DNA of 50,538 nucleotides, taken from contig JAPLCP010000174.1 of NCBI GenBank assembly GCA_026392155.1, positions 1-50,538 of the forward strand. Reading direction: 5' to 3'. The notes below the pieces were generated by a model, which was not told where the DNA came from, ran no database searches, and saw nothing but the letters and a program-made list of their open reading frames with translations. A program made the position numbers and the translations under genes. This document shows, in pieces, positions 13,119-36,075 of the stretch; position 1 is the first letter of the stretch, and each line of letters begins with the position of its first letter. This DNA comes from Armatimonadota bacterium. GTDB taxonomy: Bacteria; Armatimonadota; Armatimonadia; Armatimonadales; Armatimonadaceae.

Positions 13119-13125
13119 CCCCGTG

Positions 13126-13185
13126 CCGCCGGTTGAAAACCGACGTCTGCAGTGGCGTTCCGCCGCGAAGCCCGTGCCGGGCTCG
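13126..13185. repeat. Hairpin-array repeat, single arm (copy A)
   Basis: Three short hairpins follow each other: CGGTT-GAA-AACCG (13130-13142), GGCG-TTC-CGCC, and AGCCCG-TGC-CGGGCT, joined by the linker ACGTCTGCAGT. The arm fills the space between two divergent genes (starts at 13106 and 13203). It matches the left arms of the copies at 14501 and 35681 in layout and linkers, while the first stem has a different sequence. Confidence 0.75.
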
Positions 13186-13202: not shown

Positions 13203-13979
13203 ATGACCACCTGGGAGATCGTTGAACGCGGAGAAGAGCTCTACCAAACCAAAATCCGTGTGCATGTCGAGACGGAGGCAAACCAAGGGAAATTCGTCGT
13301 CTTAGACATCCTGACCGGTGATTTTGTGCTCCATACAGACTCTCCACAAATTGCCGCTAACCGCCTGCGAGAGAGGCACCCACAAGCGGCGATTTTTGGC
13401 CTCCAGATAGGCGTGGACGCTCCCTACATTGTCGGCCTTCCCAAAACGCCTCCCCCACCAGAAAGTTCAAACACAGAGGTACGGTCTTACCAAGATTATG
13501 AACGTGAGCTGGCCAAGCTCGTTTCAGGGCTTTCCCCCTTGACAGGTATCCGGTTTGGACTCTCATGCGTGACTACTCTCACAAGGCTTGCCCAGGAAAA
13601 CATTGACGCAGAAGTATCCGCAGAGCATAAAATTCTCTACGGTGCGATTTTCGAAGAGATCGAGCACAATAGCGGACAGGGAAAACTTCTCTCTACAGAG
13701 CGGGCAAGCGAGCTAGGCACTGCGCTACTCAACAATATTATGGGCACAGACACCGATACCTGGATTGATGTAGACTCCCTTGTGTCCAACTGGGTACTTG
13801 GTCTTCACCATCTCCTTCAGTACTGCCAGAAACCCGACCACACCCACTTAGAAGCAGTGGCGACAGAGGTTATTAACACCCTGGACTATCTCCACGATCC
13901 AGGGTTGCCTGCGATGTTCACTCTGGCCCCTTTCCACGACGAGTGGGAGCGTCAGCAACGCGCTGTAACTGAGGAATAA
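13203..13979 (+). CDS. Two-part protein: Uma2-neighbourhood N-domain plus helical C-domain
   Basis: This encodes 258 residues. Residues 1-80 follow a pattern familiar from small proteins encoded next to Uma2-type nucleases (GKFVVLDILTGDF, then RERHPQAAIFGLQIG, then PYIVG). After a Pro/Ser linker (about 82-92), residues 95-258 are predicted all-helical (ERELAKLVSGLSPLTGIRFGLS...) with a faint DUF416-like pattern; that part is not recognised with confidence. TAAAAT lies 8 nt before the ATG, consistent with a leaderless mRNA. The gene converges on the Uma2 gene with 9 bp between stops. A regulatory or antitoxin-like role is inference from position only. Confidence 0.65.
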   Translation: MTTWEIVERGEELYQTKIRVHVETEANQGKFVVLDILTGDFVLHTDSPQIAANRLRERHPQAAIFGLQIGVDAPYIVGLPKTPPPPESSNTEVRSYQDYERELAKLVSGLSPLTGIRFGLSCVTTLTRLAQENIDAEVSAEHKILYGAIFEEIEHNSGQGKLLSTERASELGTALLNNIMGTDTDTWIDVDSLVSNWVLGLHHLLQYCQKPDHTHLEAVATEVINTLDYLHDPGLPAMFTLAPFHDEWERQQRAVTEE

Positions 13980-14498: not shown

Positions 14499-14500
14499 CC

Positions 14501-14628
14501 GCCGATTGAAATCGACGTCTGCAATGGCGTTCCGCCACGCAGCCCGTTCCGGGCTAAAAATCCCCAGCCTGGAACAGGCTTTGCGGCTGAGGGACGAAGC
14601 CACTGTTGACGCCCAATTCTATTGGGCG
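14501..14628. repeat. Hairpin-array repeat, two inverted arms (copy B)
   Basis: The left arm has CGAT-TGAA-ATCG (14503-14514), GGCG-TTC-CGCC (14526-14536) and AGCCCG-TTC-CGGGCT (14541-14555). The right arm has AGCCTG-GAA-CAGGCT (14566-14580) and ends with CGCCCAAT-TCT-ATTGGGCG (14610-14628), directly behind the uppS stop codon. The right arm is roughly the reverse complement of the left, but the stems differ and remain paired. It fills the space between the Uma2 start and the uppS stop. Confidence 0.8.
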
Positions 14629-15414
14629 CTACTTCAGCCCGCCGAAGCGGCGCTCACGGCGCTGGAACTCGGCGATGGCTTCTTCGAGGTTTTCTTTGCG
14701 GAAGTCGGGCCAGCGGACGGGCGTGAAGTAGATCTCGGCGTAGGCGATCTGCCAGAGGAGATAGTTGGAGATGCGCAGGTCACCGGCGGGGCGGATCAGC
14801 AGGTCCGGGTCGGGCATACCGGCGGTGTAGAGCTCCTGCTCAAAGAGCGTGTCGTTGATCTGATCGGGAGTCAGCTCGCCCGCCGCGACTTTCTCGGCGA
14901 GGCGACGTGCGGCGTCCACGATCTCGGCGCGCCCGCCGTAGTTCAGGCAGACATTGAGAATCAGGCCCGTGTTGGCGCTGGTGACCTCGCAGTGGCGGTT
15001 GAGTTCTTTACGCAGATCGGCGGGGAGCGCCTCCAATCTACCGGAGAAGCGCATCTGGACATTGTTCTCGTGCAGCTCTTTGAGCTCACGGCGTGCGCCT
15101 TCCACAAAGAGCCGCATCAGGCCGTCGGTTTCGAGCTGGGGGCGGCGCCAGTTTTCGGTGGAGAAGGCGTAGAGAGTCAGCGCCTCCAGCTTCATGTCCG
15201 AGGCCGTACGCACGACCTCGCGGACGCTCTGGTAGCCCTCCCAGTGTCCGGAGAGGCGCGGTAGCCCTCGGTCCTTGGCCCAGCGCCCGTTGCCATCACA
15301 GATAATCGCGACATGGCGGGGTAGGCGCTCCGGGGTCGGGTCGTAAGGGAGCGGTTTGGCGGGCGCGGTAGACATATTAATCGGTCGGGTAGCCAGGGTC
15401 GTCATTTGATTCAC
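14629..15414 (-). CDS. uppS: Isoprenyl transferase (undecaprenyl diphosphate synthase)
   Basis: This encodes 261 residues. The cis-prenyltransferase hallmarks are present: HVAIICDGNGRWA with the catalytic Asp at 40, SGHWEGYQSVREVV, LYAFSTENWRRP, and the C-terminal PDLLIRPAGDLRISNYLLWQ. It condenses IPP units on farnesyl diphosphate to make the C55 lipid carrier for peptidoglycan and surface glycans. GAGG lies 4 nt before GTG 15414; ATG 15405 is an alternative. No cdsA or dxr follows, unlike the common cluster. The hairpin at 14610-14628 may end its transcript. Confidence 0.95.
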   Translation of the reverse strand: MNQMTTLATRPINMSTAPAKPLPYDPTPERLPRHVAIICDGNGRWAKDRGLPRLSGHWEGYQSVREVVRTASDMKLEALTLYAFSTENWRRPQLETDGLMRLFVEGARRELKELHENNVQMRFSGRLEALPADLRKELNRHCEVTSANTGLILNVCLNYGGRAEIVDAARRLAEKVAAGELTPDQINDTLFEQELYTAGMPDPDLLIRPAGDLRISNYLLWQIAYAEIYFTPVRWPDFRKENLEEAIAEFQRRERRFGGLK

Positions 15415-23038: not shown

Positions 23039-25315
<2,277 letters not shown>

Positions 25316-25329
25316 TACGGCGAACGAAT

Positions 25330-25460
25330 GCGAGGAGTTGAAAATTCCTCGCTGAACGCCTTCGGCGGAACGTCCTGCCGGACGATGAGGCGTGGATTTA
25401 TCAGCCCGTGAGGGCGTTCGGCAACTTGTTGCCTCTAGCGAGGGATTTTCAACCCCTCGC
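25330..25460. repeat. Hairpin-array repeat, two inverted arms (copy C2)
   Basis: The outer hairpins are GCGAGGA-GTTGAAAAT-TCCTCGC (25330-25352) and GCGAGGG-ATTTTCAAC-CCCTCGC (25438-25460). Inside lie CGCC-TTC-GGCG, GTCC-TGCC-GGAC and GGCAAC-TT-GTTGCC (25420-25433). It follows C1 after 14 bp and ends 43 bp before the start of the next gene. Confidence 0.78.
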
Positions 25461-35556: not shown

Positions 35557-35680
35557 AGCAGAGCTTCCTCAAGTGAGATTATATCGCCATCAGACTTTTC
35601 CCGTTACCAAATTCAGAGGGACTTCGGTCGTCGGTTTCGGTGAGGGATAGACGGGCATATTCTTCCCTCTGACGGTTCCG

Positions 35681-35812
35681 CCGCCCACTGAAAGTGGGCG
35701 TCTGCAATGGCGCAAGCGCCGCAAAGCCCGTGCCGGGCTACCGAGTCTATTCCCCAGCCCGGCACGGGCTTCGCAGCCGAAGGCTACCCAGACGCCTACT
35801 TTCAGTGGGCGG
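35681..35812. repeat. Hairpin-array repeat, two inverted arms (copy D)
   Basis: The left arm has CGCCCAC-TGAAA-GTGGGCG (35682-35700), GGCGC-AA-GCGCC (35709-35720) and AGCCCG-TGC-CGGGCT (35725-35739). The right arm has AGCCCG-GCA-CGGGCT (35756-35770), AGCC-GAA-GGCT (35775-35785) and CGCCTAC-TTTCA-GTGGGCG (35793-35811), with one T-G wobble. The arms are near reverse complements around a centre of about 16 bp. This is the clearest copy. Confidence 0.88.
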
Positions 35813-35821
35813 CAAAGCGAT

Positions 35822-36037
35822 TCACAGACGCTGATCTCGCTCCCGCACGGATTGATCTACTAGCCGCACTGTCTGATGCGCTATCCGCAGATGCTGATTG
35901 TGATTTTTCACAGTCTGATTTTGCTCCCGCACGCGCTGATGTGCTTTATCCGCTGTCTGATTTTTCTGTGACACACTCTGATTCTTCCGTGACACGCTCT
36001 GATCTTTCTTCGACACGCTCTGATTTGCTTTGTACAC
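35822..36037 (-). CDS. Small heptad-repeat protein from a 21-bp tandem repeat (uncertain gene)
   Basis: This encodes 71 residues from GTG 36037. Almost the whole sequence is ten copies of a 7-residue unit, [N/D/H]-Q-[S/T/R]-V-x-x-x (NQSVSKK, DQSVSRK, NQSVSQK, NQTADKA, HQRVREQ, NQTVKNH and so on). It is basic, polar and predicted helical. The opposite strand is also open and gives an acidic heptad (R-S-D-L-S-S-T type), so the coding strand is not certain. No clear Shine-Dalgarno or -10 precedes the GTG. It lies between hairpin array D and the thioredoxin-like gene. Confidence 0.4.
   Translation of the reverse strand: MYKANQSVSKKDQSVSRKNQSVSQKNQTADKAHQRVREQNQTVKNHNQHLRIAHQTVRLVDQSVRERDQRL
35825..36037. 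repeat. Degenerate 21-bp tandem repeat, about 10 units
   Basis: Units of the type CTCTGATTTTTCTGTGACACG recur every 21 bp on the plus strand; the units at about 35955-36030 are the most alike and those near 35830-35940 have diverged. Every unit keeps a TCTGAT-like core. The 21-bp period without spacers excludes a CRISPR array. Confidence 0.75.
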
Positions 36038-36075
36038 CTGCTGAACGACTCATCGCATGGGGCGGAATACGGAAA

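Follow-up and report, generated by a model that had tools for sequence, protein, structure and literature searches.

What are the hairpin arrays in this DNA, whose stems differ from copy to copy yet remain paired? The stretch analysed here, hereafter the window, comprises 50,538 nt of contig JAPLCP010000174.1 from an Armatimonadota genome (GCA_026392155.1). The initial annotation had described two two-armed copies (elements D and B) and one single arm (arm A), which agree in the order of their parts, in linkers and in loops and differ in the first stem; the sequence verified every point of that description.

Architecture and distribution of the arms

Read from its outer end, an arm opens with GCCGCC at the start of an outer hairpin, H1 (7–8 bp, loop GAA or TGAA), which is followed by the linker TCTGCAGT, a middle hairpin, H2, of type A (GGC..GCC) or type B (AGC..GCT), the letters CAAA, an inner hairpin, H3 (AGCCCG-TGC-CGGGCT, with the core GCCCG-TGC-CGGGC), and, last, a short spacer. 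Across it the two arms face each other, the second repeating the first in reverse (Table 1). Folded as single-stranded DNA, the left arm of D has z-scores of −3.8 and −3.9.

Table 1 Positions and parts of elements D and B and of arm A in the window
Feature	Position	Strand	Description and basis
Element D	35680-35813		Two inverted arms and spacer; sequence
D left arm	35680-35742	+	Covariance-model match, E 8e-19; ssDNA fold
D left arm H1	35682-35700	+	Followed by linker TCTGCAAT
D left arm H2	35709-35720	+	Type A
D left arm H3	35725-35739	+	
D left arm GTAG foot	35738-35741	-	Read on the minus strand
D central spacer	35743-35753	.	Variable; sequence
D right arm	35754-35813	-	Inverted; sequence, covariance model, fold
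D right arm H3	35756-35770	-	
D right arm H2	35775-35785	-	Type B
D right arm H1	35793-35811	-	
Element B	14500-14628		Two inverted arms; sequence
B left arm	14500-14557	+	H1 at 14500-14517; sequence, covariance model
B right arm	14564-14628	-	H1 at 14610-14628; sequence, covariance model
Arm A	13125-13185	+	Single, between divergently oriented genes; sequence, covariance model

The initial annotation had likened the outer hairpins to those of a BIME. The arms are indeed inverted and facing, but they are not symmetric. Among the scored pairs of this genome, a GTAG foot adjoins the inner hairpin of one arm in 29 of 40 and of neither arm in 11 of 40; both arms carry it in 0 of 40 pairs here and 0 of 25 in a genome of the same genus (G001), where 5.3 and 2.9 would be expected. 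Because GTAG stands on one arm or none and never on both, the two ends are not equivalent, as in IS200/IS605. About one paired copy in four lacks the tag, and other arm families do not have it as a constant feature. The stem mismatches are biased by strand: on the strand that runs from H1 to H3, A.C outnumbers G.T by 54 to 14 in this genome and by 31 to 8 in G001, in counts of sequences rather than of independent events, with one column giving about half of the bias and the bias persisting without it. This excess implies that G.T wobble is kept on the opposite strand, which reads GTAG-H3-H2-H1.

Further copies, for which the initial annotation had proposed a search, are plentiful. A DNA search found dozens in the 4.77-Mb genome and in G001, and a covariance model derived from 36 arms gave, at E <= 0.01, at least 138 arms in the former (150 candidates scored) and 115 in the latter; other relatives hold few or related arms. 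The fetched loci comprise 44 pairs, with spacers mostly of 8–17 nt, and 31 single arms or arms far from a mate. The closest copies are mostly about 85–93% alike and many insertions are common to the sister species, so most insertions look old. At the copy edges, whose inspection was also proposed at the outset, no target duplications were noticed by eye. Comparison with the sister genome gave no clean empty site: gene content differs at site A, and divergence at C48 is too great.

Within the window, element B is matched by an orthologous copy at the equivalent position in G001, and the H1 of its right arm abuts the stop codon (14629-14631) of a UppS-like gene. Arm A is missing at the corresponding place: the common sequence stops at its left edge, the flanks match on one side only and the gene content beyond the arm differs between the two genomes. 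At site D, synteny is lost in the fetched region of the sister genome. A search of the window with a loose 16-nt pattern, itself weak, returned matches no better than chance.

Several features adjoin these copies. Beside arm A, positions 13203-13979 hold a 258-aa gene with no Pfam match that is absent from the corresponding place in G001, and degenerate 21-bp direct repeats resembling TCTGATTTTTCTGTGACACAC adjoin element D at 35826-36050. Elsewhere, the copies at L002, L003 and L005 lie inside a further outer palindrome, TTTTTCACGAATCG...CGATTCGTGAAAAA, which may mark a favoured target or represent a fourth hairpin on the outside, and at L243 and L262 of G001 another GC-rich repeat, CCCCCTTCGCAGCGAAGAATGAGCCGCCC..., occupies the spacer next to the inner hairpin.

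Both sides of the stems change together

That the stems change on both sides yet stay paired holds across the family: about 97% of alignment cells pair, with a covariation score roughly four times that of shuffled data. For 123 distinct arms of this genome, 96.8% of cells are paired against 80.2% after shuffling, 12 of 17 pairs carry changes on both sides, and the score is 0.391 against 0.100 ± 0.006, a value reached by 0 of 500 shuffles; controls with slid partners score at most 0.055. The arms of G001 behave alike (97.2% paired; 0.274 against 0.079; 0 of 500 shuffles). Fitting to the structure biases these two full alignments in its favour, whereas the 36-arm alignment, made by MAFFT alone, has 98.2% of cells paired and a score of 0.315 against 0.077.

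Orthologous sites provide a comparison in place. In 18 orthologous insertions with common flanks in the two species, 493 base pairs are comparable, of which 34 show double changes that still pair, 5 double changes that do not and 20 one-sided changes. As about 10% of single positions differ, around 5 double changes of any kind would be expected under independence, a figure inferred from the same counts as the observed ones. The 34 compensated changes in place answer the objection of shared ancestry. Neither of the two outcomes that would have refuted the initial annotation, a lack of further copies or a lack of covariation, was observed. Compensated changes of a single pair occur at L207/L243, at L024/L282 and in element B, whose right-arm H3 differs from its orthologue by one C-G/T-A change; at L013/L270, three adjacent pairs changed together while the loop was kept.

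The co-change of both stem sides in place is therefore shown; its cause may be selection or a copying mechanism. It is possible, at odds that we place clearly short of even, that the paired changes are mainly mutational, produced by quasi-palindrome template switching or by gene conversion that swaps hairpins. Such an origin is compatible with transposons and would alter what the covariation means. It accords with first stems that fall into few recurrent classes, with the scarcity of single-sided intermediates and with the joint three-pair change at L013/L270. Against a mutational origin stand the compensated changes of a single pair (L207/L243, L024/L282) and three features that indicate a recognised structure: linkers and loops that are conserved though unpaired, the bias of tolerated mismatches towards one strand, and the recurrence of the layout, with unrelated sequences, beside one branch of transposases.

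Subclass 1.2 transposase genes between hairpin arms

This genome has three places with Y1_Tnp (PF01797). P0001 (150 aa; locus L055) lies between inverted arms of this family that are identical over 57 of 57 nt, and its gene stands where element D has its spacer. P0002 (147 aa; locus L054) has a complete element on each side, with an outer arm pair around the whole; in G001 the orthologous site holds a short element only, though with a right arm of a second family. The two proteins score 78.3 and 93.7 bits, respectively, against PF01797 (cut-off 23), and are sisters in the tree with support of 100/96. Both carry the HUH motif MPDHVH, in agreement with DH[IV]H, and the tyrosine motif Y...Q..HH (YVQEQKTHH and YVKNQKQHH), whereas the W motif reads FRWGNGY in P0001 and FRWANGY in P0002 instead of containing WQ, which several homologues do have. 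Judged by tyrosine motif and tree, both proteins are on the TnpAY1 subclass 1.2 branch, without being strict members by every motif. G001, despite its 115 arms, yielded no Y1 gene flanked by arms of this family. The third place (L056; G000 C68:74961-75294) holds an interrupted gene whose parts are in different frames, with a multi-hairpin inverted repeat of another kind, GGGGCCTGAAAGTCCCC..., on its flanks.

The same layout recurs across the phylum. A survey gave 42 Y1 places, 33 of them with Y...Q..HH, and inverted multi-hairpin arms lie on both sides of about 30 of these 33 genes. Inverted-repeat scores there are mostly 19–82, against cross-locus maxima mostly of 10–19; five Y1 genes of another clade (four in G017, one in G036) score 9–11 and have no such arms. 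The arm sequences are unrelated between elements and the layout recurs, with an outer hairpin bearing a TGAA-type loop and one or two more hairpins. In each of three genomes (this one, G014 and G006), an arm family of its own is accompanied by its own transposase and many miniature copies. In G014, a single contig of 7.6 Mb, a Y1 gene lies between such arms, and the 60 arm matches include many inverted pairs about 30 bp apart, with stems that by inspection also change in pairs (for example CCCCGCATTGAAATACGGGG, CCGGGCAATGAATTACCCGG and CCACGCACTGAAGTACGTGG); G006 has the same arrangement and 24 arm matches.

Another miniature element, alike in layout and unrelated in sequence, occupies positions 25178-25317 of the window. 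Its arms are about 80–85% identical to those flanking a subclass 1.2 Y1 gene (L331) in G001. Just after it, at about 25330-25354, stands an outer hairpin, GCGAGGAGTTGAAAATTCCTCGC, that flanks another subclass 1.2 transposase (L329).

Outside the phylum, we examined the 80 nearest homologues from GTDB genomes, 74 of which have Y...Q..HH. The palindrome CCNNNGGTTNAAACCNNNGG occurs within 600 bp of 49 of the 80 genes, at 133 sites in all, and in 111 of 134 the letters at its free NNN positions complement each other. Counted over whole genomes, it appears 0–25 times per strand in 12 of these genomes, against 0–1 for the reversed control, and in several of the 12 most sites adjoin the transposase gene. 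Palindromes with similar loops stand beside subclass 1.2 homologues in Bacteroidota, Chloroflexota and other phyla. Because the Bacteroidota palindromes are simpler, this extension is an association rather than proof of the same element. Hairpin density in noncoding DNA within 300 bp of the transposase genes is only twofold that of the in-locus control (6.8 against 3.4 per kb), since the outer parts of the loci hold the same hairpins; the whole-genome pattern counts and the cross-locus inverted-repeat scores were used as controls instead.

Other genes are also found between arms. At C126 (L199/L142) in this genome, the arms enclose a 224-aa gene of the SUKH family (SUKH-1, SMI1/KNR4; PF09346), where the orthologue in G001 has only a short spacer. 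C201 has an ORF region between arms in both species (122 aa here), and at C69 the arms enclose a DUF7822 gene, with one arm missing in G001. These cases, together with the 258-aa gene that borders arm A, suggest that arms can bracket passenger genes, a reading that stays a lead because separate insertions on the two sides of a gene would give the same picture. The stop codon of the SUKH gene at C126 falls inside the GTAG foot of an arm.

Proposed mechanism, alternatives and known systems

We propose that the arrays are terminal arms of single-strand-DNA transposons of the IS200/IS605–REPtron kind, together with miniature (REPIN/MITE-like) derivatives. We give this a probability of about 0.85 and infer within it recognition, cleavage and movement. 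Y1 enzymes of IS200/IS605 and TnpA-REP bind folded single-stranded ends, cut them by a tyrosine and rejoin them in a strand-specific manner (PMC8266576). The autonomous form would carry a Y1/HUH transposase of TnpAY1 subclass 1.2 between its arms, and the non-autonomous miniature form a short spacer; a few elements would have a passenger gene there. First, the transposase would recognise the folded arms on one strand, in the order GTAG-H3-H2-H1 from 5' to 3', reading fold, loops and linkers and not the letters of the stems, which would be why the stems change in pairs. It would then cut and rejoin the arms, thereby spreading copies, with differing roles for the two ends; copies with only a spacer would spread in trans. 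The initial annotation had rightly seen a folded strand that is kept, facing arms and many copies; the cognate Y1 gene, the kinship with REPINs, REPtrons and TIRtrons, the difference between the ends and the phylum-wide recurrence were absent from it. A broader and far more tentative reading is that subclass 1.2 Y1 proteins are the transposases of widespread single-strand transposons (at least in Armatimonadota, Bacteroidota and Chloroflexota) with interchangeable hairpin arrays recognised by fold, distinct left and right ends, and the capacity to move passengers, such as SUKH-family genes, as arm-gene-arm cassettes.

The old insertions common to both species, and the host functions reported for REPs of other bacteria (PMC8266576), would fit BIME-like sites that bind gyrase or nucleoid proteins and serve chromosome structure, with the transposase as a historical source only. 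This is unlikely, because it leaves unexplained the transposase gene inside the element and the several families that each have their own. Less likely again is a structured RNA (a terminator, an mRNA end or a regulatory RNA) selected as such. The folds are stable, and of about 57 classifiable copies 20 lie between convergent and 24 between tandem genes; however, 13 lie between divergent genes, every paired element has arms in both orientations, so that one of the two is reversed in any transcript, the bias of the mismatches goes with the arm, the transposase gene can replace the spacer and Rfam has no match for the arrays. The initial annotation had left selection on RNA or on single-stranded DNA open; that a folded single strand is maintained stands, and the transposase association and the mismatch strand bias favour DNA. 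Ordinary DDE-type MITEs with long terminal inverted repeats would share the inverted ends and miniature copies, but are very improbable given that the gene between cognate arms is repeatedly Y1/HUH, that no target duplications were noticed by eye and that the two ends are structured and unlike.

The single-strand transposons proposed here resemble several known systems. REPIN/BIME elements with RAYT (TnpA-REP) REPtrons, of subclasses 2.2 and 2.5 in E. coli, Pseudomonas and Stenotrophomonas, likewise have inverted palindrome pairs in many intergenic copies, a Y1/HUH gene flanked by its own repeats and GTAG at a hairpin foot, here on one arm of many copies. The 44 pairs and at least 138 arms also form a dispersed multi-copy unit of two inverted palindromic repeats, as REPINs do. 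In contrast to REPtrons, there are three hairpins per arm and about 130 bp in all, GTAG stands on at most one arm where REPs have GT[AG]G at each foot, and the protein has the class 1 motif Y...Q..HH instead of the class 2 Y...NP of TnpA-REP, yet is flanked by cognate arms; the RayT of E. coli takes a very long branch in the tree, and its place is unsure. TIRtrons (TIRYT; Di Nocera 2013, PMC3733652) also have a Y1 gene flanked by long terminal inverted repeats, which in some cases are self-complementary, and repeat families occur in the same genome. Subclass 2.1, with HTH tails, takes in 20 of 26 TIRYTs, and a GGGGWSAS motif accompanies most (Quentin 2018, PMC6006769), whereas the present elements combine the subclass 1.2 signature with hairpin arrays of covarying stems. 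IS200/IS605 (subclass 1.1) share the class 1 Y1 transposase, palindromic ends and non-equivalence of the two ends; here, however, the ends are inverted three-hairpin arms, the gene is low in copy number and the miniature copies are many, and no tnpB was noticed between arms.

The initial annotation knew of no described family with this layout, and in the partial literature consulted we found no named one either. In that literature, which has few subscription journals and no preprints, we found no paper later than the 2018 survey that gives subclass 1.2 repeats. The closest published relative of the protein is TnpAY1 subclass 1.2 itself, with DHVH, Y...Q..HH, 147–150 aa and low copy number. It was described as lacking REP association and as occurring mainly in Cyanobacteria and Bacteroidetes, and, for all its kinship with IS200/IS605, as having neither IS properties nor repeats (Quentin 2018, PMC6006769). 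In contrast, hairpin arms flank members in Armatimonadota, and palindromes flank members in Bacteroidota, Chloroflexota and other phyla. This published HUH branch, reported without repeats, thus gains a candidate DNA partner and a testable assay. The free turnover of stem letters, with loops, linkers and fold retained, is a natural experiment on how a single-strand-DNA transposase reads hairpins, and many unannotated intergenic palindromes in several phyla would be explained.
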